A DNA stretch of 64,000 nt from assembly GCA_025774935.1 (NCBI GenBank), contig JALGZK010000004.1, forward strand, positions 62,001-126,000, written 5' to 3'. The DNA comes from a bacterium. Its GTDB lineage: Bacteria > Joyebacterota > Joyebacteria > Joyebacterales > Joyebacteraceae. Shown here one piece after another: positions 40,718 through 63,602 of the stretch (position 1 is its first letter; every line of letters begins with the position of its first letter). The notes beneath the pieces were generated by a model, which was not told where the DNA came from, searched no databases, and saw only the letters and a list, made by a program, of their open reading frames with translations. Made by a program: the position numbers and the translations under genes.

Positions 40718-40737
40718 TCACACCAATCTCGTTCTCA

Positions 40738-40818
<81 letters not shown>

Positions 40819-40967
40819 ACTTCGATTCTGCTTCCGCTCGCGCTGCCTGCCCGCCCGGGAGAGCCCCGGCGCCAGCCGTCGCTTGAGCGGCTATGTCGGT
40901 TGGTATAAGCTACCACAGCGAATCACACTCGTCAACGGTCACGCTAGGCACGCGAGCGGAGGGGAGC

Positions 40968-43310: not shown

Positions 43311-43385
43311 TGGTAGCGCCAACGGGAATCGAACCCGTGTTACCGGCTTGAGAGGCCGGCGTCCTAACCGCTAGACGATGGCGCC
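43311..43385 (-). tRNA. tRNA-Glu (CTC)
   Basis: The minus strand folds as a complete cloverleaf with encoded CCA. The anticodon arm is CCGGC-CTCTCAA-GCCGG with anticodon CTC; the T-arm holds GGTTCGATTCC. The acceptor begins GGCGCCA and ends TGGCGCT-A-CCA, with a G-U first pair. It lies 11 nt downstream of tRNA-Gln and both follow gltX. Confidence 0.96.
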
Positions 43386-43396
43386 GTATCTTCTCG

Positions 43397-43470
43397 TGGT
43401 TGGGGAGGGAGGATTCGAACCTCCGCCGGCGGATCCAGAGTCCGCTGTCCTGCCACTAGACGACTCCCCA
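43397..43470 (-). tRNA. tRNA-Gln (CTG)
   Basis: The minus strand gives TGGGGAG...CTCCCCA-A-CCA as acceptor stem with encoded CCA. The anticodon arm is GCGGA-CTCTGGA-TCCGC, anticodon CTG; the T-arm holds GGTTCGAATCC. It starts only 3 nt after the gltX stop codon. Confidence 0.96.
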
Positions 43471-51169: not shown

Positions 51170-52658
51170 GGGACGGGGGGCCGCCGCCTGCACACTCGCG
51201 CTTCTGATCGCCACCGGACCCGGGGCCGCCGTTGCGCAGACCGACGTGTTCGCGACGGGTGTCGTCACGGGCGACTTCCTCTACAACACTGATGAGGAAG
51301 CGTCCGTCGCCGACGCGAGGTTCGAACTGGACCTCATCGTAGGGCCGGTGACGGCCGGAAGCGTCTTCCGCGCGTACCAGCTCTCCGACCCGTCGTACAA
51401 CCCGCGGTCGGTCTACGTCCCTCCGGCGGAGCTCAAGCATCTCTACGCGGAGTACGTGCAGGGAGAGTTGCTCCTCCGAGGCGGCAACTACCTCGAGACG
51501 TTCGGGAGGGGCATCACCCTTCGCGCCTACGAGGAGGTCGCGCTCGAGTACGACACGACGCTCGACGGACTGCTCGGCGAGTACACGTGGGACTGGGCGG
51601 AGTTCACGCTTCTGACCGGCGTCGTGACGGAGGACGTCACCGCGGTCCGGCACAGGGAGCACATCGTCCAGGGCACGCGCCTCTGGGCGCGGGCGACGGA
51701 CTGGCTCAGTCTCGCCGGGAGCGCCCTCGGGCGTTCGGCCACCGAGAAGGACGACGAGGTGGAACTCCCGGACGAGATCTCCAGGTTCGAGGACGTCGTG
51801 CTCGGGGGGGAGGTCGACGCGTGGCTCGGTCCGGTGACGGTCGGGATTGAATACGCGGGGCGGAGTGGGGAGAACCCTGTGACCGAGGAGCAGAAGCTCG
51901 AGGGCCATGCGGGGTACGCGACGGTGACCGCGATGGTCGGCCCGGTGACCTTCTTCGGCGAGTACAAGGACTACGACGACTACTACGACTACATGGTCAA
52001 CCCGCCGACGGCTGTGAAGGAGCACCCCTGGACGCTCATGAACCGGGCGACATACCAGATCGATCTGAACGACGAGCGGGGCTGGCTGGCCGAGGGTAGC
52101 GCCTCCGTGGGATCCGGGGGATTCATCTCCGGCGGGGCATCCGAGGCGAGGAACCACGACAGCGACCTCCGGCACTGGGAGATCTACGGAGACTACGTCC
52201 ACACGTTCGATTCGGGCACGATCCTGGCGTTCGCCGGTTCGTGGCAGCGCGAGTATCTCTTCGTCGGCGAGACCGCGTCCGGCAAGTTCACCGAGCGGTT
52301 CATCGGTGCGGGCGAGGTGGACTTCAGCTTGGGGACGGGGCAGATTGAACTGGTGGTGGAAGCTGAGCGTCTCGACGCCCCTGACGGCGAGCCGTACGAG
52401 GACCTCCTGACGTCGGTCGCCTGGTACCCGACGCCGACGTCCACGGTCATCGCAACGGCGGAGAAGACGACCGACGATGTCGCTGACGGAGAACGCGACA
52501 CGTGGTTCATCGTCGAACTCAGGAAGACGCTCGCGCAGGACCTCGACGTCTCCTTGAGTGGCGGAACACAGCGCGGCGGGAAGATCTGCACCGGTGGCAT
52601 CTGCTACGTCGAGCCCGAGTTCGAGGGCGCGCGTCTCAGGTTCACCAAGTACTTCTAG
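51162..52658 (+). CDS. DUF6029-like outer-membrane beta-barrel protein
   Basis: 498 residues from a GTG at 51162 with GGAGGAAGCTG upstream. The signal peptide ends 'AVAQTD'. The mature protein alternates hydrophobic and polar residues throughout, with aromatic girdles, and ends in 'EGARLRFTKYF', a terminal Phe typical of outer-membrane barrels. The motif 'LRGGNYLETFGRGITLRAYEE' is what I associate with DUF6029 proteins of Bacteroidetes, which commonly neighbour TlpA and Omp28 genes. Two Cys lie near the C-terminus ('GGKICTGGICYVEPE'), interesting next to thiol-redox genes. Confidence 0.78.
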   Translation: MSRGRGAAACTLALLIATGPGAAVAQTDVFATGVVTGDFLYNTDEEASVADARFELDLIVGPVTAGSVFRAYQLSDPSYNPRSVYVPPAELKHLYAEYVQGELLLRGGNYLETFGRGITLRAYEEVALEYDTTLDGLLGEYTWDWAEFTLLTGVVTEDVTAVRHREHIVQGTRLWARATDWLSLAGSALGRSATEKDDEVELPDEISRFEDVVLGGEVDAWLGPVTVGIEYAGRSGENPVTEEQKLEGHAGYATVTAMVGPVTFFGEYKDYDDYYDYMVNPPTAVKEHPWTLMNRATYQIDLNDERGWLAEGSASVGSGGFISGGASEARNHDSDLRHWEIYGDYVHTFDSGTILAFAGSWQREYLFVGETASGKFTERFIGAGEVDFSLGTGQIELVVEAERLDAPDGEPYEDLLTSVAWYPTPTSTVIATAEKTTDDVADGERDTWFIVELRKTLAQDLDVSLSGGTQRGGKICTGGICYVEPEFEGARLRFTKYF

Positions 52659-52674
52659 AGAGGACGGTCGGTTG

Positions 52675-53733
52675 GTGGAACAGGGAACAACGGGAGTGTG
52701 GCGGGCTCCGATCGTACTCGTGGCGGTGCTGACCTTCGCTGCCCTTCTCGCGGCGGGCGGCTGCGACTGGTTCGACGACCCTCCGGAGGAGAACCTCCCG
52801 CCCTCGACGACGATGGAGTCGTGTCCGTCCATGCGGGACGTTCAGGTCGGCGACGACGTGACGTTCGAGTGGACGGGCGAAGACCCGGACGGGTCGGTCG
52901 CCCTCTACGAGTGGGCGTACGACGACACGCTCTCCGGCGAGACAGCCGAGGAGTCGCTCACGGTGGAGGACGTCGCCGAAGGCGAACACCTGTTCGAGGT
53001 TCGCGCCGTCGACGACAAGGGCGCGCGCGACCCGTCGCCGGCGACGTGCGAGTTCACCGCGATTTCTGGCGGCAGTCTGGTCGACCGCGCAGTGCTCGTC
53101 GAGTTTCTCACAGCTTCGTGGTGCGTGAACTGCCCCGAGGCTGAGGAGGCCCTCCTGAACCTGCTGGACCAGTACGGACAGGAGAACCTGTCGGTCATAG
53201 CGTATCACTATCCGCCGGGACCTCTCTGGACGCTCGAGACGAAGGACAGGGTCGACCTCTACCACGGCGTGGGAGTTCCGGATGTCTTTCCGGCGTGCGT
53301 CTTCGACGGGTTGACCTGGGAGATCGGCGCTCTGAGCGTCGCCGACGCGCAGGCGCGCTACGAGTTCCGGATCGACTCGAGGATGCCGGTCGGCTCCCCG
53401 ATCAGTCTGGAGGTGACCGGATCGATCGCGGCCCGTGGGCAGGTGAGTGTCAAGGTGAAGCTCCACGACGCGCTCGCTGGCGGACCGAACGTGGTGAGGA
53501 TCGGGGTCATCGAGAACGAGATCCCGCTTGAGGATCCGCCGTACGAGTTCGTCGTGCGGGACATGCTCGACGAGGAGACGCTGACGATAGCCGCAGCAGG
53601 GGACTCGACCACAGTCGTGCGCGACTTCACGGTCGATCCCTCATGGAACGAGAATCACCTGGATGTCATCGCGTTCGTCCAGAACGACACGACGCTCGAG
53701 ATCATCCAGTCAGTCAGATTGGGCAACGAGTAG
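52675..53733 (+). CDS. Omp28-like lipoprotein with PKD-like and CxxC thioredoxin-fold domains
   Basis: 352 residues from a GTG at 52675 (TTG at 52672 also possible). Lipobox 'FAALLAAGGC'. Residues about 35-125 look like a PKD/Ig domain ('DVTFEWTGEDPDGSVALYEWAYDD'). Residues about 135-230 are thioredoxin-like with 'LVEFLTASWCVNCPEAEEALL', i.e. CxxC, and 'GVGVPDVFPACVFDG' in the cis-Pro region. Residues about 235-352 form the Omp28 C-terminal beta-sandwich. It is a close domain homologue of the next two genes, which have UGA in place of the first Cys of CxxC. It probably acts in thiol exchange at the outer membrane. Confidence 0.85.
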   Translation: MEQGTTGVWRAPIVLVAVLTFAALLAAGGCDWFDDPPEENLPPSTTMESCPSMRDVQVGDDVTFEWTGEDPDGSVALYEWAYDDTLSGETAEESLTVEDVAEGEHLFEVRAVDDKGARDPSPATCEFTAISGGSLVDRAVLVEFLTASWCVNCPEAEEALLNLLDQYGQENLSVIAYHYPPGPLWTLETKDRVDLYHGVGVPDVFPACVFDGLTWEIGALSVADAQARYEFRIDSRMPVGSPISLEVTGSIAARGQVSVKVKLHDALAGGPNVVRIGVIENEIPLEDPPYEFVVRDMLDEETLTIAAAGDSTTVVRDFTVDPSWNENHLDVIAFVQNDTTLEIIQSVRLGNE

Positions 53734-53837
53734 GGGAGGAGAACGACAGCAAGAGCGGGAACACTGCTTCCACCGCGAGACGAAGGCAGGCAGGATCCTG
53801 ACGAGAGAACGCGGCGATGCCGCGAAAGGAGTGGGGG

Positions 53838-55895
53838 ATGTCGAAGAGATTGGCGATCGTGGGGCTCTCTGCCCTGATCCTGCTTGGGGCCGCCGCGCCG
53901 GCGTTTGCGGCGCAGCGTGCCGTGTTTGCCGAGCTGTTTGGGGGCACGAACTGAAGCTTCTGCCCAACAGCGCAGGCTGCGCTGCAATGCATGCTGCTCG
54001 GATGGGACTACCCGTACGACCCACCGCAGCCGTTTCCGGAGGACGCGATATACGGTGAGGATGAGCTCGTCGTCATCTACTGGCACAGCAGAAACGGGGG
54101 CGTGTACTACACCACCGAGGCCCGCAACCGGCAGCTCTTGTACCCGGACATCAGCGCGCACCCGACGTGCAAGTTCGACGCCGTCCAGACCTATGTCGGG
54201 GGCGGCGGCAGCACGTACAACGCCTACATGAACATCATCAACTCACGGCTGGCTGTCGACACGCCCATCACGATCCGCTCCAAGGGTCTCATCGGAGATA
54301 CGGAAGGGTGGGTCGAGGCGACCTTCAAGACGGAAGAGCCGATCGCCGGGACGCTCCAGGCTCACTTCGTCCTCATCGAGAAGGTCGGCGAGCACTACAA
54401 CTGGACGTCTCGCGACCATCTCCCGTGGGAGACCGTGACCCTGGCGGCCGCCGGAGACTCGGTCACGGTCTACAGGGAGTTCACTATCACGAGCTCCCCG
54501 TGGCCGGTCATCGGCGACCTCGACGTCGTGGTCTTCATCGAAGACACGTCGCCGCACCTGGTCTACAACGCGCAGTTCATGCCCGATCCGTACGTCCTCG
54601 AAGCGCAGAGCCCATCCTACGCTGAGGAGATCCTGCCGCTGGAGACGGCGACGTACTCGATGACTGTCAAGAACATCGGAACGATCGACGACACCGTCAC
54701 CGTTGCGATCTCCGAGCACGAACTGCCACCGGGCCTCGATCTGGCCGACTGGGAGGCGAACTACCGGCTGGTGGGCGGGTCGTGGATGTCGACTCCTTCG
54801 GAGCACACCATCCTGATCGGCGAGACGCTGGAGTTCGAGCTGCGCGTCGTCGACACGGTCGGGGACACGGAAGGAATGGCGGTCACGACTCTGACCGCGA
54901 CCAGTAACGGCGATGCGGACGTCGACGGCGGAGCCACGTTCGCGACCTTCGTCGGGCTCCCCTCGGTCCTCCTCGTCGATGACGACGGGGGAGAGACGTG
55001 GGAGACGTACCTCCAGACCGCGCTCGCCGACACTGGCTACGCTGCACGACACTGGGACGTCATGGCCGAAGGCAGGCCGGGCGAGGGACATCTCACGTCC
55101 TACTGGGCGGTCGTCTGGACCACGGGCACCACGACCACGAGCCTCGGGCGCGACCAGGACAAGCTCATGGCTTACCTCGACGGCGGCGGAAACCTCTACC
55201 TGTCGAGCATGGGCTTCCTCAACGAGTCCCTGTCGCTGCCCAACACGTTCGTCGACGACTACCTCCACATCGACGCCTGGAACAGCGACAACGGCGGTTT
55301 CTTCATGACCGGTGTCGCGGGCGACGAGATCTCGGACGGAATGAACCTCGGGATGCTCGGGAGCCCGATCCCGCCGGGCGGCATCGACAGCTTCACCAGG
55401 ACGGCGCCCGCGGACACGATCTTCTACGCCGCGAACGGCTCGAAGGGACTCAAGGTCGAGGAGGCCGGGCACAAGATCGTCTTCACCGCGTTCCCGTTCG
55501 AGAACGTGAAGACGGCGACCGCTGCGCCGAGCAACGCGAAGACCCTGATCGGGAGGATCATGGACTGGTTCGGGACACCGGCGGCGGGCGTCGACGGAGG
55601 CTCGAACGAGCTCGGTCGTCTCGCGCTCAAGCAGAACTTCCCGAATCCGTTCAATCCTGTGACGAAGCTCGAGTTCTCGATCCCCGCGGGGGTTGAGCAC
55701 GTGAGCCTCGTCGTCCACAACGTGAACGGCCAGGTTGTCAGGACGCTCGTCGACGGGCGGATGACTGCCGGTCCTCACGCGGTGGTGTGGGACGGGACGG
55801 ACGAAAGCGGCGAGAGTCTCTCTTCTGGTGTCTACTTCGCGAGGCTCACTGCCGACGGCGAGAAGGCGTTCACGAAGATGACGCTTCTGAAGTAG
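53838..55895 (+). CDS. Predicted secreted selenoprotein 1: Omp28/thioredoxin-like UxxC protein with FlgD/type IX-like C-terminal domain
   Basis: Read from the ATG at 53838 (AAAGGAG upstream) the frame has one TGA, at 53952-53954 (codon 39), then stays open to TAG at 55893, giving 685 residues with TGA as Sec. The signal peptide is MSKRLAIVGLSALILLGAA up to 'AFAA'. The context 'AELFGGTN-U39-SF-C42-PTAQAAL' aligns with 'VEFLTASWCVNCPEAEEAL' of the preceding lipoprotein and with the next gene. A strong hairpin follows the TGA. After the Omp28-type sandwich comes a 'SVLLVDDDGG...VVWTTG...YLDGGGNLYLSSM' domain resembling a class I amidotransferase fold, then a C-terminal sorting-type domain with 'NFPNPFNP' and final 'KMTLLK'. 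A standard caller would begin at an internal ATG (53991), losing the signal and Sec. The alternative is a nonsense mutation, but the paralogue has TGA at the same codon. Confidence 0.85.
53952..53986 (+). promoter_or_regulatory. Sec UGA and candidate bacterial SECIS hairpin, gene 1
   Basis: TGA is at 53952-53954. CAGCGCA (53968-53974) and TGCGCTG (53978-53984) form a perfect 7-bp stem with loop GGC, 20 nt after the UGA. Bacterial SECIS elements lie just downstream of UGA with a small apical loop having G in the first positions, so position and loop fit. SelB binding is not testable here. Confidence 0.7.
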
Positions 55896-55907
55896 CGGAA
55901 GTACGTG

Positions 55908-55930
55908 CCCGGCGGCCGCGGGCCGCCGGG
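55908..55930 (+). terminator. GC hairpin between the two selenoprotein genes
   Basis: CCCGGCGGCC (55908-55917) pairs with GGCCGCCGGG (55921-55930) around GCG, 12 nt after the stop. No T-tract. Related hairpins follow the next two genes. Confidence 0.55.
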
Positions 55931-55985
55931 TACGGGCGGGCTACCGGCCGAGACTCGCGGACCCGCTTCGAAAGGAGAGAAGACG

Positions 55986-58007
55986 ATGCTCAAGCGAACG
56001 GCGATCGCTGCCCTCGCTGTCGTGATCCTGCTGGGAGCTGCGGCGACAAGTCTGGCCGCCACGCGCACGGTATTCGCGGAGCTCTTCGGGGCGACGTGGT
56101 GAGGCTCCTGCCCGAGTGCCCGTGAGGCGCTCTCGGCACTGCAGGACGAAGTGGGAGAAGATGTGCTCATCAACGTGTACTGGCACGTGTCGAGCAGTGA
56201 CTACGGTACAACCGAGGCCGATGCCCGCGCGGACCTCTACGATGTCACCGGGATCCCCGAGGTCGACTTCGACGCCGTGGCGGAGGTCATCGGCGGGGGA
56301 GCGTTGGACGTTCTCCTCCCGATCTATGGACCCATCGTCGAAGGAAGGCTCGGACTCGAGACCCCGGTGACGATCCGCTCCTACGGGATGGTCGGCGAGA
56401 CCGGCGGATGGGTGGAGGCCGTGTTCAAGGCCGACGCGGACATCGCGCCGACCGTGGGCTCGCTCACGGCGCAGTTCGTCGTGATCTCGAACCCCGAGCT
56501 TCCGGACTACCCGTGGAACGTGATCGACCAGCTCCCGCCCGAGACCGTGACACTCTCGTCGGCAGGAGACTCGGTCGTCGTCTACAGGGATATCGCGGCG
56601 ACGTGGCCGCCTGAGTACGTCGGCGACGACATCGACGTCGTCGTCTGGATTGAGGACATGAATCCCCACGAGGTCTACAACTGCCAGATCATGCCCGATC
56701 CGTACCAGATCGAGTTCGCGAGTGCGCTGTTCGCGACGGAGATCGGTGCTCTGGAGTCCGCCGAGTACTCGGTCACGATGAAGAACGCCGGGAACTTCGC
56801 GGACGAGATCACGGTCGAGCTCTCTCAGGTCGAGCTCCCCGACGGGGTCGACCCATCGGAGTGGCTGGCCGAGTATCGGGAGATCGGGGGCTCGTGGACG
56901 ACCGTGCCGAGCGTGCACAGCTTGGAGGCGGGCGAGTCAGTCGGATTCGAGGTCCGGCTCACCGACCTCGTCGGGGACACCGTCGGCATGGCACTGACTC
57001 GACTCGGCGCCCAGAGCGGGAATGACGTCGAAGTCTCCGAGAACGCGGACTTCGCCACGTTCGTCGGGCTTCCCTCGATCCTCCTCGTGGACGACGACGG
57101 CGGGGATGCCTACGAGACGCATCTCAGATCGGCGATGACCGACACCGGCTACGCGTCGAGGCACTGGGATACAGAGGTCGAGGGCAGGCCGAGTGAGGAG
57201 CAGCTGTCGTCGTACTGGGCTGTGGTCTGGACGACGGGCAGTCAGCTCACCAACCTCTCGCACGACCAGGAGAACATCGTCACCTACCTGGAAGGCGGGG
57301 GGAACCTCTACCTGTCGAGCTGCGGGTTCCTCGGTGAAGGCACGGAGCCGAGTCCCTTCATCACCGACTACCTGCACGTCGACTCGTGGACTCCCAATAC
57401 GGGCGGGTTCTTCATGAACGGTGTCGCGGGCGACGCGATCACCGACGGCATGCAGCTCGGGTTGCTCGGCGGGGCTCCGATCGCGCCGGGGGACAGCGAC
57501 TCCTTCGTTCGGTCGGCGCCGGCCGACACGATCTTCTACGCCGCGTCCGGTCAGAAAGGACTGAAGGTCGAGGAGACCGGTCACAAGCTCGTCTTCACGG
57601 CATTCCCGTTCGAGAACGTGAAGACCACGACGGCGTACCCGAACAATCAGAAGACCCTGATCGCGCGGATCCTCGACTGGTTCGCGGCTCCGGCGGCGGG
57701 GATAGACGGGGGTTCCGACGAGTTCGGTCGTCTCGTGCTCCGGCAGAACTTCCCGAATCCGTTCAATCCCGTGACGAAGCTCGAGTTCTCGATTCCCTCC
57801 GGGGTGGAGAACGTGAGCCTCGTCGTCCACAACGTGAACGGTCAGGTGGTCAGGACGCTCGTCGACGGGCGGATGACGGCCGGTCCTCACGCGGTGGTGT
57901 GGGACGGGACGGACGAAGACGGCAAGAGCCTGTCCTCTGGTGTCTACTTCGCCAGGCTCACGGCCGACGGTGAGAAGGCGTTCACGAAGATGACGCTTCT
58001 GAAGTAG
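55986..58007 (+). CDS. Predicted secreted selenoprotein 2: Omp28/thioredoxin-like UxxC protein with FlgD/type IX-like C-terminal domain
   Basis: The ATG at 55986 follows AAAGGAGAGAAGACG. The frame has TGA at 56100-56102 (codon 39) and then is open to TAG at 58005, 673 residues in all. The signal peptide is MLKRTAIAALAVVILLGAA to 'SLAA'. The active-site context is 'AELFGATW-U39-GS-C42-PSAREAL', an almost textbook W-C-G-x-C-P thioredoxin motif with Sec for the first Cys. 'YDVTGIPEVDFD' supplies the cis-Pro region. The domain order is the same as in selenoprotein 1, and the C-terminal 95 residues are nearly identical, also at the DNA level. Without recoding, translation would start no earlier than 56151 and the product would have no signal peptide. 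Likely an exported, type IX-like secreted or surface-attached oxidoreductase. Confidence 0.88.
56100..56145 (+). promoter_or_regulatory. Sec UGA and candidate bacterial SECIS hairpin, gene 2
   Basis: TGA is at 56100-56102. Stem: CCTGC (56107-56111) with GCAGG (56141-56145), then AGTGCC (56115-56120) with GGCACT (56135-56140), then GAG (56124-56126) with CTC (56130-56132), apical loop GCG. The internal loop on the 5' side includes an unpaired U. The loop starts 25 nt after the UGA. Confidence 0.75.
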
Positions 58008-58020
58008 CGGAAGTTCGTGC

Positions 58021-58042
58021 CCGGCGGCCGCGCGCCGCCAGG
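58021..58042 (+). terminator. GC hairpin after selenoprotein 2 gene
   Basis: CCGGCGGC (58021-58028) pairs with GCCGCC-A-GG (58034-58042) with a bulged A, loop CGCGC. It is homologous in position and sequence to the hairpin at 55908. Confidence 0.5.
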
Positions 58043-58081
58043 TGCGGTGGGATCACGACCAGCTACCTAGGAGGGGGTTAG

Positions 58082-59530
58082 ATGATGAGGAACCGGCTTC
58101 CGGCCTTGGCCGCGGCCGTTCTCGGGATCCTGCTGTCGACGGCGCTCGCTGTTGCGGCACCCGCGGACGAGGCGGTCAGGGCTGACGGGGGCGATGCCGG
58201 AAGCGACGGGGGTTCCCGCGCGTTCGGCGTCGAGATCACGCCTGATTTCGTTGCCTCGGAGATCGAACCGGGTGGTTCGGCCATCTACTACACCTTTGTG
58301 ACGAACACCGGGGACGTGACCGACGTGATCACCGTCGACATCACTCACGACGAGATGCCTGACGGCGTCACCGAGTGGGACTGGTTCGCCAACTACTGCG
58401 ACGAGAGCATCTGCCATACCGGCCCGTGGGACTACACTCTCGGGCCCGGTGAGTCTCAGCTGCTCGACGTCCACCTGGACGACTTCATCGGGACGGCCAC
58501 CGGCCTGTCCGTGATGACGCTCACAGCTGTAAGCAACGGTGACCCGGGCGCCGACGACGCGCAGGAGTACGCGACCTTCGTCGGCGTGCCGTCGATTCTC
58601 ATCGTCGACGACGACGGCGGCGCCAACGACGAGGACTACATCGAGGACGCGGTCACGGACGCGGGCTACTACGCGTACACGTACGACGGCGACAACGATG
58701 GGATCGCAGACGTCTGTGACGCCGACGCGTTCCGGATCGCCCTGTGGACGACGGGCGGTGGCGATGCCACCTACGTCACGGGCGCGACCGAGACCATCTG
58801 GATGAACTACCTCGACGACGGCGGGAGCTTCTTCCTCGCGAGCGCCGAGTACCTCTCGACGCGCGGCGGGCCTACCACGTTCACGACCGATTACCTGCAC
58901 CTCGACGGGTGGAACAACGACGTCGGCGGGTCGCTGGTCACGGGCGTCCCGGGCGACGCGATCAGCGACGGGATGGTGCTGCCTCTCGGCACGACCGTCG
59001 CGGTCTCGGACGACTCCTGGGATCCGCCGAGCTTCCCGGCTGAGTCGTTCTTCGACGTCTTCACCTCGACGGAGGGTGTGAAGGGGCTGCGGGGCGGTGA
59101 GGACGGACACATGATCGCGTTCATCCCGTTCGCCTTCGAGAACGTGAGCACCGTCGACGCCGACCCCAACAACCAGAAGACCCTCATCGGCCGCGTGATC
59201 GACTGGTTCGACCCGACCGACACCGGCGTAGAGGGTGGCGTCGGGCTGGCGCGCGCGTCGCTCAAGCAGAACTACCCGAACCCGTTCAACCCGACGACGA
59301 CGATCGAGTTCGCAGTGCCTGCTGAAGCCGGACACGTGAACCTCGTCGTCTACAACGCGAACGGACAGGTCGTGAAGACGCTGGTCGACGGTCGCGTCTC
59401 GCCCGGACCTCAGTCGGTCGTGTGGGACGGGAAGGACGGCGCAGGCCAGAGCCTCGGATCGGGCATCTACTTCGCCCGCCTGACGGCTGATGGAGAGACG
59501 GCCTTCAGGAAGATGACGCTCCTGAAGTAG
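58082..59530 (+). CDS. Secreted protein with amidotransferase-like and FlgD/type IX-like domains, lacking the thioredoxin domain
   Basis: 482 residues; the ATG at 58082 follows AGGAGGGGGTTAG. Signal peptide ends near 'ALAVAAPADE'. Residues about 45-165 are a beta-sandwich ('FGVEITPDFVASEIEPGGSA'). Residues about 170-390 are the 'SILIVDDDGGANDEDYIEDAV...IALWTTGGG...YLDDGGSFFLAS' domain shared with both selenoproteins, and residues about 395-482 the 'NYPNPFNPTTTIEFAVP' sorting-type domain ending 'KMTLLK'. It looks like a paralogue of the selenoproteins that has lost, or never had, the UxxC part. Role unknown; perhaps a structural partner. Confidence 0.75.
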   Translation: MMRNRLPALAAAVLGILLSTALAVAAPADEAVRADGGDAGSDGGSRAFGVEITPDFVASEIEPGGSAIYYTFVTNTGDVTDVITVDITHDEMPDGVTEWDWFANYCDESICHTGPWDYTLGPGESQLLDVHLDDFIGTATGLSVMTLTAVSNGDPGADDAQEYATFVGVPSILIVDDDGGANDEDYIEDAVTDAGYYAYTYDGDNDGIADVCDADAFRIALWTTGGGDATYVTGATETIWMNYLDDGGSFFLASAEYLSTRGGPTTFTTDYLHLDGWNNDVGGSLVTGVPGDAISDGMVLPLGTTVAVSDDSWDPPSFPAESFFDVFTSTEGVKGLRGGEDGHMIAFIPFAFENVSTVDADPNNQKTLIGRVIDWFDPTDTGVEGGVGLARASLKQNYPNPFNPTTTIEFAVPAEAGHVNLVVYNANGQVVKTLVDGRVSPGPQSVVWDGKDGAGQSLGSGIYFARLTADGETAFRKMTLLK

Positions 59531-59623: not shown

Positions 59624-61945
59624 ATGAGGATGTCGATGCTGGCCCTGGCCGCGCTCCTCGCCGTGCTGTGCTCGGCGACGGGAGTGTCCGCGTATCCGAG
59701 GGATGACGCTGCGGTGGTGGAGGTGGAGATCCTCTCCAGGGCCGACGTCGCCCGGCTGAACGAGCTCGGGATGGACATCATGAACGTGAGGGACGGCGTC
59801 GCGGAGATCGGGGCGATTCCCTCCGAGATCGACGTCCTCTGGGCGAACGGGTTCCGGCCGCGGATCGTCGTCGAGAACATGCGCGACGAAGTCGCGTCGC
59901 TGCGCCTCGAGGACCGCGGGGAGTACCACAGCTACGCCGAGCTCACCGCCGACCTCGCCGCGTGGGCAGCGACCTACCCCGAGATCACCGAGCTCGTATC
60001 GATCGGGCAGAGCGTGCAGCACCGAGAGCTGTGGGCGCTCAAGATCAGCGACAACGCCGACGTCGAGGAGTTCGAGCCGGAGATCCAGTGGATCGGTGGC
60101 CACCACGGCAACGAGACGATCGGCATCGAGGTGGTTTACTACATGGCGGAGTACCTCCTCGAGAACTACGGCACCGACCCTCAGGTCACGTGGCTCGTCA
60201 ACGAGCGCGAGTTCTGGCTCATCCCTTCGTTGAACCCCGACGGACTCGAGAACGGCTCCCGCTACAACGGGCAGGGCACCGACCTCAACAGGAATTACCT
60301 CTGTCCCGACGGGTGCAACGCCGGAACGGCGTTCTCAGCGCCGGAGACCCGCGCCCTCCGCGACTTCAACGTCGGCATGAACCCCGTGACGTCGCTCACG
60401 TTCCACGCGGGCGCGGTCTACGTGAACTACCTCTGGGACTACACGTACGCCCCGACGCCCGACGAGCCGATGATCATCACGATCTCGGACGAGTACGGTG
60501 CCCTCTCCGGCCTCCCCGTCACGAACGGCGCCGACTGGTACGTCATCACGGGAAGCTGTCAGGACTGGTGCTACGAAACGCGAGGCGAGATCGACACGAC
60601 GATCGAGGTCTCGGTCGACAAGGACCCTCCCGCGTATCAGATCGACGGCATTGTGAACGCGAACATCCCCGCCATGCTCTACCAGGCCCGCATGTCGGGC
60701 CGCGGGATCCGCGGTCTCGTCTACGACGGTGAGACGATGGAGCCGCTCTACGCCACGATCAGCATTCCGGAGATCGGGAAGGACGTGTACACCGACCCCG
60801 CCGTCGGCGATTACCACCGCATGGTCGAGACGGGCACGTACACCGTTACGGCGAACGTCGAGGGCTACCCGACGCAGACGGTATACAACGTGACCGCGAG
60901 TCTCGACACGTTCGTCGTCGTGAACTTCCCGATGGAGCCGCCGCCGCGCGGGTCCATCGCTGGGTACGTGACGGACGACGCATCGAACCCGATCGCCGCC
61001 ACCGTCGAACTCACCGACCTCTCCGGCTACTCCGCCACCGCGGACGCGGGCACCGGGTACTACGAGATTCCTTTCGTCCCTGCCGGGACACACAGCGTGA
61101 GGGCAAGCCTCCTCGGCTACCTCTCCGATATGCGCGACGACGTCGTCGTGCAGGACAACACCATCTCAACGGAGGACTTCGAGCTCCAGAGCCCCGTTGT
61201 CTATGACGATCTCGAGTCGGGCCTCACGAACTGGACGGGAGCATGGGCCCTGACCTCGCTCCACTGCAACAGCCCGAGCTCGTCGATGACGGACAGCCCG
61301 GGCGTCGACTATCCGAACCACGCTCTCACCACGATGACCCTCTCCGGTGTCGTCGACCTCTCTGAAGCCGAGAGCGCCGCCCTCTCGTTCTGGCACCGGT
61401 ACGCGACCGAGCCGACGTACGACTTCTGCTTCGTCGAGGTAAGCACGAACGGCGGCGGGGCTTGGACCCAGGTCGCTTCGTACGACGGATTCCAGGGCGA
61501 GTGGGAGGAGGTCGTGATCGACCTCGCCGACTACGTCGGCACCGAGGTGTTCAAGGTGCGATTCGTCCTCGACTCGGACGGATGGGTGACGGACGACGGG
61601 TGGTACGTCGACGACGTGGCGATCTTCGCGCAGACGTCGGCCTCGGGCATCGACGACGGAGCCGGCGCGCGCAGGCTCGCGGTCTCGAACTACCCGAACC
61701 CCTTCAATCCGAGAACGAGCATCCGGTACGAGCTGCCGGCGGCTGGTCCGGTCGAGCTCCGGATCTACGATCCGGCGGGGCGTCTCGTCCGCACCCTGGA
61801 AACGGGGGAGAAGGGGGCGGGGGCGCACGAGGTCGACTGGGACGGCGCCGACGACCGGGGAGTGCCTGTCGCGGCCGGCATCTACTTCGTCCGGGTCGCG
61901 ACGGAGAGAGGAGAGGCATCGGGGAAGGTGGTCCTCCTCAAGTAG
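59624..61945 (+). CDS. Secreted M14-family zinc carboxypeptidase with carboxypeptidase-regulatory, jelly-roll and FlgD-type domains
   Basis: 773 residues. Signal peptide to 'GVSAYP'. After a propeptide-like region, the M14 domain (about 105-360) has the zinc site H-x2-E in 'IGGHHGNETIG', the third ligand His in 'SLTFHAGAVYVNYLW', the substrate-binding 'NPDGLENGSRYNGQGTDLNRNY' and catalytic Glu in 'DTTIEVSVDK'. Two carboxypeptidase-regulatory-like beta domains follow ('GIRGLVYDGETMEPLYATISI', 'GSIAGYVTDDASNPIAATVEL'). Then come a MAM/jelly-roll domain ('YDDLESGLTNWTGAWALTS') and a C-terminal domain with 'NYPNPFNPRTSIRYELP' ending 'KVVLLK'. It releases C-terminal amino acids from external peptides. 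A strong terminator follows. Confidence 0.92.
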   Translation: MRMSMLALAALLAVLCSATGVSAYPRDDAAVVEVEILSRADVARLNELGMDIMNVRDGVAEIGAIPSEIDVLWANGFRPRIVVENMRDEVASLRLEDRGEYHSYAELTADLAAWAATYPEITELVSIGQSVQHRELWALKISDNADVEEFEPEIQWIGGHHGNETIGIEVVYYMAEYLLENYGTDPQVTWLVNEREFWLIPSLNPDGLENGSRYNGQGTDLNRNYLCPDGCNAGTAFSAPETRALRDFNVGMNPVTSLTFHAGAVYVNYLWDYTYAPTPDEPMIITISDEYGALSGLPVTNGADWYVITGSCQDWCYETRGEIDTTIEVSVDKDPPAYQIDGIVNANIPAMLYQARMSGRGIRGLVYDGETMEPLYATISIPEIGKDVYTDPAVGDYHRMVETGTYTVTANVEGYPTQTVYNVTASLDTFVVVNFPMEPPPRGSIAGYVTDDASNPIAATVELTDLSGYSATADAGTGYYEIPFVPAGTHSVRASLLGYLSDMRDDVVVQDNTISTEDFELQSPVVYDDLESGLTNWTGAWALTSLHCNSPSSSMTDSPGVDYPNHALTTMTLSGVVDLSEAESAALSFWHRYATEPTYDFCFVEVSTNGGGAWTQVASYDGFQGEWEEVVIDLADYVGTEVFKVRFVLDSDGWVTDDGWYVDDVAIFAQTSASGIDDGAGARRLAVSNYPNPFNPRTSIRYELPAAGPVELRIYDPAGRLVRTLETGEKGAGAHEVDWDGADDRGVPVAAGIYFVRVATERGEASGKVVLLK

Positions 61946-62216: not shown

Positions 62217-63602
62217 GTGAGGCGAGCGAAGATCCTCTCCATAGTCATCGCCCTCGTTCTGCTCGGCGCGATCGCGTTCGCGCCGTCGCCCGCCGGTCTC
62301 TCGCGGGCCGGTCAGAACGCCATCGCCATCTTCGTCCTCTGCTTCGTCCTCTGGGTATCGAACGCCCTTCCGCTCGCCGTCACGAGCCTCCTCGCCATCG
62401 TCCTTCTGCCCATGCTCGGCGTGGTCCCGCTGACGCGTTCGTTCGCGCTCTTCGGAAGCCCCGTCGTCTTCTTCATCCTCGGTGCGTTCATGCTCGCGGC
62501 GGCTCTCATGCGCTCCGGCCTCTCGACGCGCCTCGCCGTCGCGTTCATCCGACGCTTCGGGAAGACGCCGAAGTCGCTCATCGCCGGGATCATCCTCTCC
62601 GGTGGGTTTCTCGCGTTCTGGATGCCTGAGCACGCCGTCGCGGCGATGCTCTTCCCGATCGTCCTCGAGATCGCGCGCGCGCTCGACCTCCAGCCGAGGA
62701 AGAGCGGTTACGGCGCCGCGCTCTTCCTCGCCCTGGCCTGGGGCGCGGTCGTCGGAGGCATCGCCACGTTCCTCGGAGGCGCCAGGGCACCGCTCGCCCT
62801 CGGCATCCTCTCCGAGCACTACGACCTCACGATCGGCTTCCTCGACTGGATGGTCGCCGTGGCGCCCCTCTCGATCATCCTGATGTTCGCGGCCTACTTC
62901 GTCCTTACGAAGTTCTTCCCGATGGACGTGCAGGACATCGCGCGCGCCAAGGACGCGCTCGACGCGAAAGCCCGCGAGCTCGGTCCGGTCTCTGCGCGCG
63001 AGAAGGGCGTGAGCGCGATCACGGCCCTCACGATCGCGGCTTGGATCTTTGCGGGGCGCGACTTCGGGCTGGCGCCGATTGCGCTCTTGGCCTCCGTCGC
63101 GCTCTTCGTCTTCGGCCTCATCGAGTGGAAGAGCGTGGAGGAGTACGTCAACTGGGGCGTCATCCTGATGTACGGCGGGGCGCTCGCGATCGCGGCGGCG
63201 CTCCACGAGACGGGCGGGGCGAAGTGGATCGCGGACGTCGTCATGGCGCGCGCCGCCGGACTCCCGAGCATGTGGGTCGTGGCCACCTTCGCGCTCCTCG
63301 CGGCCTTCCTCACGGAGGCGATCAGCAACGTAGCCGCGGTCGCGCTCCTCCTGCCGATCTGCTTCGGTGTTGCCGAGGGCGCGGGCATCGGGCCGATCAC
63401 GGTGGTGTACGCCGTCGCGGTACCGGCGGGCCTAGCGTTCGCGCTGCCGATGGGCACGCCGCCGAACGCCATCGCCTTCTCGGCAGGCTACTTCAGGCTG
63501 AAGGACTCGGTCGCAGCGGGCGCGATCCTGAAGCTCGTCGCGCTCGTCATACTGTTAGTAGTGGCGAAGTTCTACTGGGCGTTCCTGGGGATCACGGGCT
63601 AG
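62217..63602 (+). CDS. SLC13/DASS-family sodium:anion symporter
   Basis: 461 residues from a GTG at 62217, with about 12 membrane spans. The family signature is visible near the end ('TEAISNVAAVALLLPICFGVAEG', with the SNV/SNT motif of the substrate loop, and 'ALPMGTPPNAIAFSAGYF'). The first-half loop 'FLAFWMPEHAVAAMLFPIVLEIAR' has an 'MPEHAV' where the SNT motif of repeat 1 is usual, a divergence that may change substrate choice. Transports dicarboxylates, sulfate or similar anions with Na+. It is followed 23 nt later by a universal stress protein gene. Confidence 0.88.
   Translation: MRRAKILSIVIALVLLGAIAFAPSPAGLSRAGQNAIAIFVLCFVLWVSNALPLAVTSLLAIVLLPMLGVVPLTRSFALFGSPVVFFILGAFMLAAALMRSGLSTRLAVAFIRRFGKTPKSLIAGIILSGGFLAFWMPEHAVAAMLFPIVLEIARALDLQPRKSGYGAALFLALAWGAVVGGIATFLGGARAPLALGILSEHYDLTIGFLDWMVAVAPLSIILMFAAYFVLTKFFPMDVQDIARAKDALDAKARELGPVSAREKGVSAITALTIAAWIFAGRDFGLAPIALLASVALFVFGLIEWKSVEEYVNWGVILMYGGALAIAAALHETGGAKWIADVVMARAAGLPSMWVVATFALLAAFLTEAISNVAAVALLLPICFGVAEGAGIGPITVVYAVAVPAGLAFALPMGTPPNAIAFSAGYFRLKDSVAAGAILKLVALVILLVVAKFYWAFLGITG

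Follow-up and report, generated by a model that had tools for sequence, protein, structure and literature searches.

Within the 64,000-nt stretch of DNA analysed here (the window), a gene that starts at ATG 55986, with AGGAGAG just 5′ of the start, meets an in-frame TGA at 56100-56102 and then stays open for another 634 codons, to TAG 58005-58007. This raised the question of whether the TGA ends the gene or is read as selenocysteine (Sec), and if the latter, what kind of protein is made and where it works. Both the host genome and the relatives used for comparison are metagenome-assembled.

An in-frame TGA recurs at the same codon and exchanges only with Cys

GGC TCC TGC CCG directly follows the TGA, and when the TGA is read as Sec the product contains ELFGATWUGSCP, giving a W-U-G-S-C-P active site. 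In the full product, a signal peptide and this motif are followed by a long middle region, with a FlgD_ig domain at the C terminus (Table 1). Coding sequence lies on both sides of the in-frame UGA, as expected for a bacterial selenoprotein, and homology runs through the TGA, which bears out the original prediction that a signal peptide and a thioredoxin motif are joined across codon 39.

Table 1. Coordinates of the Sec39 gene, its encoded domains and its relatives in the window
Feature	Position	Strand	Details
Whole Sec-containing gene	55986..58007	+	673 aa, stop TAG 58005-58007; 62% identity with neighbouring paralogue across the TGA
Signal peptide, ~residues 1-24, MLKRTAIAALAVVILLGAAATSLA	55986..56057	+	Putative, read from sequence; N-terminal form common to orthologues
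Thioredoxin-fold domain	56058..56351	+	AlphaFold2 model; HBP35 best Foldseek match
TGA = Sec39, first residue of U-x-x-C-P motif	56100..56102	+	Codon 39 from ATG 55986
SECIS-like hairpin, loop GUGA starting 19 nt after UGA	56106..56146	+	Synonymous-codon test p = 0.042 for the Sec39 gene
Resolving Cys42, invariant	56109..56111	+	
Beta-sandwich like HBP35/Omp28	56367..56690	+	AlphaFold2 model, Foldseek; weak PF11551 matches in relatives
Ig-like beta domain	56709..57065	+	Full-protein model
Alpha/beta (Rossmann-like) domain	57078..57686	+	Model; no Pfam match above cutoff
C-terminal sorting domain, FlgD_ig / T9SS type A	57750..58004	+	PF13860 52.7 bits, cutoff 27; TIGR04183 28.6 bits, cutoff 23
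Cys homologue open frame, SWCVNCP	52558..53733	+	Cys codon 53122-53124; lipobox LAAGGC; start uncertain
Adjacent Sec-containing paralogue, TNUSFCP	53838..55895	+	TGA 53952-53954, its sole TGA, same codon
Related gene without thioredoxin head, middle and tail kept	58082..59530	+	45% identity to residues 241-673; FlgD_ig and Por_Secre_tail

Five genes of the host genome, two of them adjacent in the window, have a TGA at this codon, with the motifs TNUSFCP (window 53952), TWUGSCP (window 56100), TNUSFCP (contig C1), and ADUAFCP and QGUVFCP (both contig C30). The adjacent paralogue is 62% identical to the Sec39 protein over residues 1-673. Because the TGA is found at exactly the position of codon 39 in five paralogues on three contigs and in many orthologues from independent assemblies, it reflects neither chance nor sequencing error, and we ruled out a pseudogene or a sequencing error as its source. 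A reassigned genetic code was likewise ruled out, since TGA otherwise serves as a regular stop codon in the host genome and ends 15 of the 35 likely genes of the window. Taken with the Sec machinery and the hairpins described below, these features make it nearly certain, on sequence grounds, that the gene encodes a selenoprotein, and we infer Sec insertion at codon 39.

The family is present in 20/20 genomes of the host phylum examined. Among the 37 homologues whose loci were read, a subset of the matches in these genomes, the site is occupied by Sec (18/37) or Cys (19/37) and by nothing else, while the Cys at +3 and the Pro at +4 are invariant. All 37 therefore have Cys or Sec aligned at position 39, the check that the original prediction had called for, and its placement of Sec at the nucleophilic Cys position of a C-x-x-C pair is upheld. 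On a tree of the family, six Sec/Cys changes are required, at least four of which are forced by well-supported branches; U was written as C when the tree was built, so the site itself is uninformative in it. Clean swaps were also found between orthologues of a single genus at the same conserved locus, where ...GATSUGYCPNAREAL in one corresponds to ...GAVGCGYCPNAREAL in the other, and a gene for a Cys lipoprotein lies directly upstream of both.

In the window, four related genes stand in a row (52558-59530): the Cys lipoprotein, the two Sec paralogues and a relative lacking the thioredoxin head. The pairing of a Cys lipoprotein with a long protein is kept in most genomes of the host phylum. A search of plasmids returned matches to the tail only. 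Several genomes of the phylum, the host among them, also encode another Sec family (L067:1326 on G000:C21, L050, L068-L073). Its members are shorter (~340 aa), have a motif of the EHFTASWUSSCP type and carry a T9SS/FlgD tail; only the Sec form of this family was seen.

The genome encodes the machinery for Sec insertion

The original prediction further hinged on selA, selB, selC and selD being encoded in the genome, and all four components were found. tRNA-Sec, with anticodon TCA (UCA), lies at C14:179043 on the window's own contig, next to selD (C14:177978), which has an in-frame TGA of its own in the active site (CAGUASK). selA (533 bits) and selB (345 bits) both score over their cutoffs. The Sec-containing selD sits just upstream of the tRNA-Sec gene, the two spanning G000:C14:177978-179137.

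Across the host phylum, tRNA-Sec scores at least 68 bits in 19 of the 20 genomes and selA is over cutoff in 16. Some of the missing cases come from incomplete assemblies, though two of the genomes that lack selA have completeness ratings of 96-99%. In another genome, a SelB-profile match with one in-frame TAG (G012:C138:15322-16518) is probably another elongation factor.

Sec genes carry an excess of SECIS-like hairpins downstream of the UGA

In most Sec genes a hairpin is possible with a small loop starting ~17-21 nt past the UGA and a G near the 5′ end of the loop. Over the 66 nt that follow the TGA, folding energy was not unusual (z -0.37), and scanning 53900-56300 against Rfam with permissive settings yielded chance-level matches only, none of them SECIS-related. 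We instead used a control that kept the protein sequence constant while replacing codons with synonyms sampled from codon usage within the family. With the loop start allowed between 16 and 37 nt, which is reportedly the range of the published SECIS model, the Sec genes (n=25) exceeded the control in hairpins with a loop G (p ~1e-4). With the loop start at 15-22 nt the excess reached p ~1e-10, a range set after viewing the hairpins and in sequences that are related, so these p-values are approximate. The Cys genes (n=19) showed no hairpin excess over either range (p 0.95 for 16-37 nt and 0.43 for 15-22 nt), nor was there any in a control region further downstream of the codon (p 0.68), and a thinned set of 17 gave the same answer. 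Individual genes vary, some Sec genes being without a signal in this test; the downstream hairpin with an apical-loop G, as in bacterial selenoproteins, is thus strong at the group level and modest for the Sec39 gene itself (p = 0.042).

The thioredoxin-like head most resembles HBP35

To characterize the part of the protein that bears Sec39, we turned to structure prediction. With the full-length model, matches to the beta-domains swamped the Foldseek result, and the head with its following sandwich was therefore modelled alone with AlphaFold2, from 20 window and related sequences with Cys in place of Sec (pLDDT 91.7). In this model the helix after the motif begins at model residue 18, and the invariant Pro67 appears to occupy the cis-Pro position of thioredoxins. 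The best Foldseek match of the head was HBP35, the 35 kDa hemin-binding protein of Porphyromonas gingivalis (5y1a; E 2e-9, TM 0.75), the next best being 6e-4. Profile searches of PDB sequences also returned HBP35, in first place with alignment A3 (E 1.8e-5) and in second with alignment A5 (8e-5). Alignment A3 sets TAEWCGYCP of HBP35 on the U-x-x-C-P motif, with Sec39 on the catalytic Cys48; Cys48 and Cys51 are both needed for the thioredoxin activity of HBP35 (PMC2907840). The model thus predicts a thioredoxin head and a beta-sandwich of the HBP35 fold. The two proteins share a thioredoxin head with C-x-x-C-P, a beta-sandwich and a C-terminal T9SS sorting domain. They differ in that the Sec39 protein has Sec in place of Cys48 and two extra domains before the tail, and identity in the structural alignment is 18%.

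Other known families are more distant. Thioredoxin/TlpA-like UxxC selenoproteins have the same active-site motif and presumably the same chemistry, but another architecture, and Pfam thioredoxin models gave no match above cutoff for the Sec39 protein. The Omp28 family (PF11551, NF033782; PDB 2r2c) is weakly similar in the beta-sandwich and CxxC region, but its curated cutoffs are not reached: PF11551 (gathering cutoff 34.9 bits) had no match in the Sec39 protein and scored 21.4 bits for one paralogue, and filing under PF11551 was rejected.

A selenoprotein family related to Omp28 does exist. NF045500, 'Omp28-related selenoprotein', is the hypothetical protein GOS_C listed with UxxC in Table 1 of a 2026 review (PMC13188914); it was first found in marine metagenomes, and a Trx-like fold was described for it (PMC2398784). 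Like GOS_C, the Sec39 protein has a thioredoxin-like fold and U-x-x-C, and its residues 25-155 match the NF045500 model significantly (E 4e-12). However, the model is matched only in part, at 46.2 bits where the curated cutoff is 200, so despite the significant match we rejected filing the protein there; its paralogues and relatives score 66 bits at most, and the shorter EHFTASWUSSCP family lower still. The original prediction, that the family might be new as an Omp28-like selenoprotein with a FlgD/type IX-like sorting domain, therefore needs one correction: an Omp28-related selenoprotein was already known as NF045500/GOS_C. As the Sec39 protein is only its distant relative, what is new is the architecture of a T9SS-type cargo and the set of paralogues found across the phylum. 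In the literature searched, Omp28 and selenoprotein were joined nowhere.

The C-terminal tail points to export by a type IX system

The tail of the Sec39 protein passes the cutoffs of PF13860 and TIGR04183, and relatives pass that of TIGR04183 too. The genome also encodes a translocon for T9SS cargo: SprA, as a 2208-aa frame, scored 529.8 bits in the host and was found in none of 14 control genomes, and several copies of the PorV family are over cutoff. These results agree with the earlier suggestion of a secreted protein with a FlgD/type IX-like sorting domain. FlgD_ig-type C-terminal tails occur in ~150 places of the host genome (G000), which suggests a large T9SS-like secretome.

The same ~150 matches mean that such tails are so common that not all need be T9SS signals, and this gives some substance to another reading, in which the protein is a selenoprotein but a periplasmic one, handling disulfides in the manner of Dsb/TlpA, with a tail that is merely structural. 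It would also fit the score of the tail against PF18962 (22.2 bits, below the cutoff of 27). However, the TIGR04183 cutoff is passed by the Sec39 protein and its relatives alike, the tail is the very end of the protein, and both SprA and PorV are encoded in the genome. HBP35, the closest structure, has been proven to be a T9SS cargo, which the Por (type IX) system delivers to the cell surface (PMC3120885). We consider a purely periplasmic protein unlikely, and T9SS export of the Sec39 protein, as judged from its sequence, likely.

A probable Sec version of an HBP35-like cargo

Readings without Sec fare far worse. Were the TGA a true stop, the gene would be broken, or the frame beyond it would be translated on its own with GTG 56151 as start. 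Such a frame, open for 618 codons, does exist, but its product would have neither signal peptide nor active site; moreover, five paralogues and many orthologues keep the TGA in frames with no other break, it swaps only with Cys, and the hairpin excess in Sec genes would be unexpected for pseudogenes. We regard this reading as highly improbable. Insertion of another amino acid, whether by suppression to Trp or Cys or through a reassigned code, is hardly credible either: the site does align with Cys in homologues, but TGA terminates genes normally here, the genome has a dedicated tRNA-Sec(TCA) with selA, selB and selD, and Trp occupies the site in 0 of the 37 homologues.

The Sec39 protein is predicted to be a new Sec variant of the kind that is built like HBP35 and works as a thioredoxin. 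Its fold and motif make disulfide oxidoreductase chemistry outside the cytoplasm likely, and we hold it probable that the protein is a T9SS cargo of the HBP35 type with Sec in its active site, acting as an extracytoplasmic thiol oxidoreductase. SelB and tRNA-Sec would place Sec at UGA39, directed by the hairpin just downstream; the signal peptide would then take the chain across the inner membrane, and the C-terminal sorting domain would send it through the type IX system to the cell surface or into the medium. There, Sec39 and Cys42 of the HBP35-like head would form a fast redox pair (U-x-x-C) that may reduce or rearrange disulfides, this direction of reaction being the one we infer. The Cys lipoprotein encoded just upstream is a possible electron partner. 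Whether this extends to surface selenium thiol chemistry throughout the phylum, with several T9SS-exported Sec paralogues per cell that form a redox relay with the anchored Cys lipoprotein, is a question on which we lean neither way.

If that reading holds, selenoproteins would for the first time be described as cargo of a type IX secretion system. The protein would bring together Sec incorporation and type IX export, a pairing absent from the literature searched, where type IX secretion and selenoproteins were co-mentioned only in one paper, on rabbit feeding. That the costly and oxidation-sensitive Sec would be used on a surface protein, in multiple copies and with repeated swaps to and from Cys among close relatives, in an uncultured seep phylum offers a natural test of when selenium is worth its cost outside the cytoplasm. 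Automatic annotation is likely to truncate such genes at the TGA.

Other features of the window were also noted. Directly downstream of the gene cluster, 59624-61945 encodes an M14 zinc carboxypeptidase that also has regulatory-like domains and a MAM domain, along with a FlgD/T9SS-like tail, followed at 62217-63602 by a transporter of the sodium:sulfate/citrate type. Elsewhere there is a TPP riboswitch (40730-40824, -) and then two tRNA genes (43314-43385 and 43400-43470, -).
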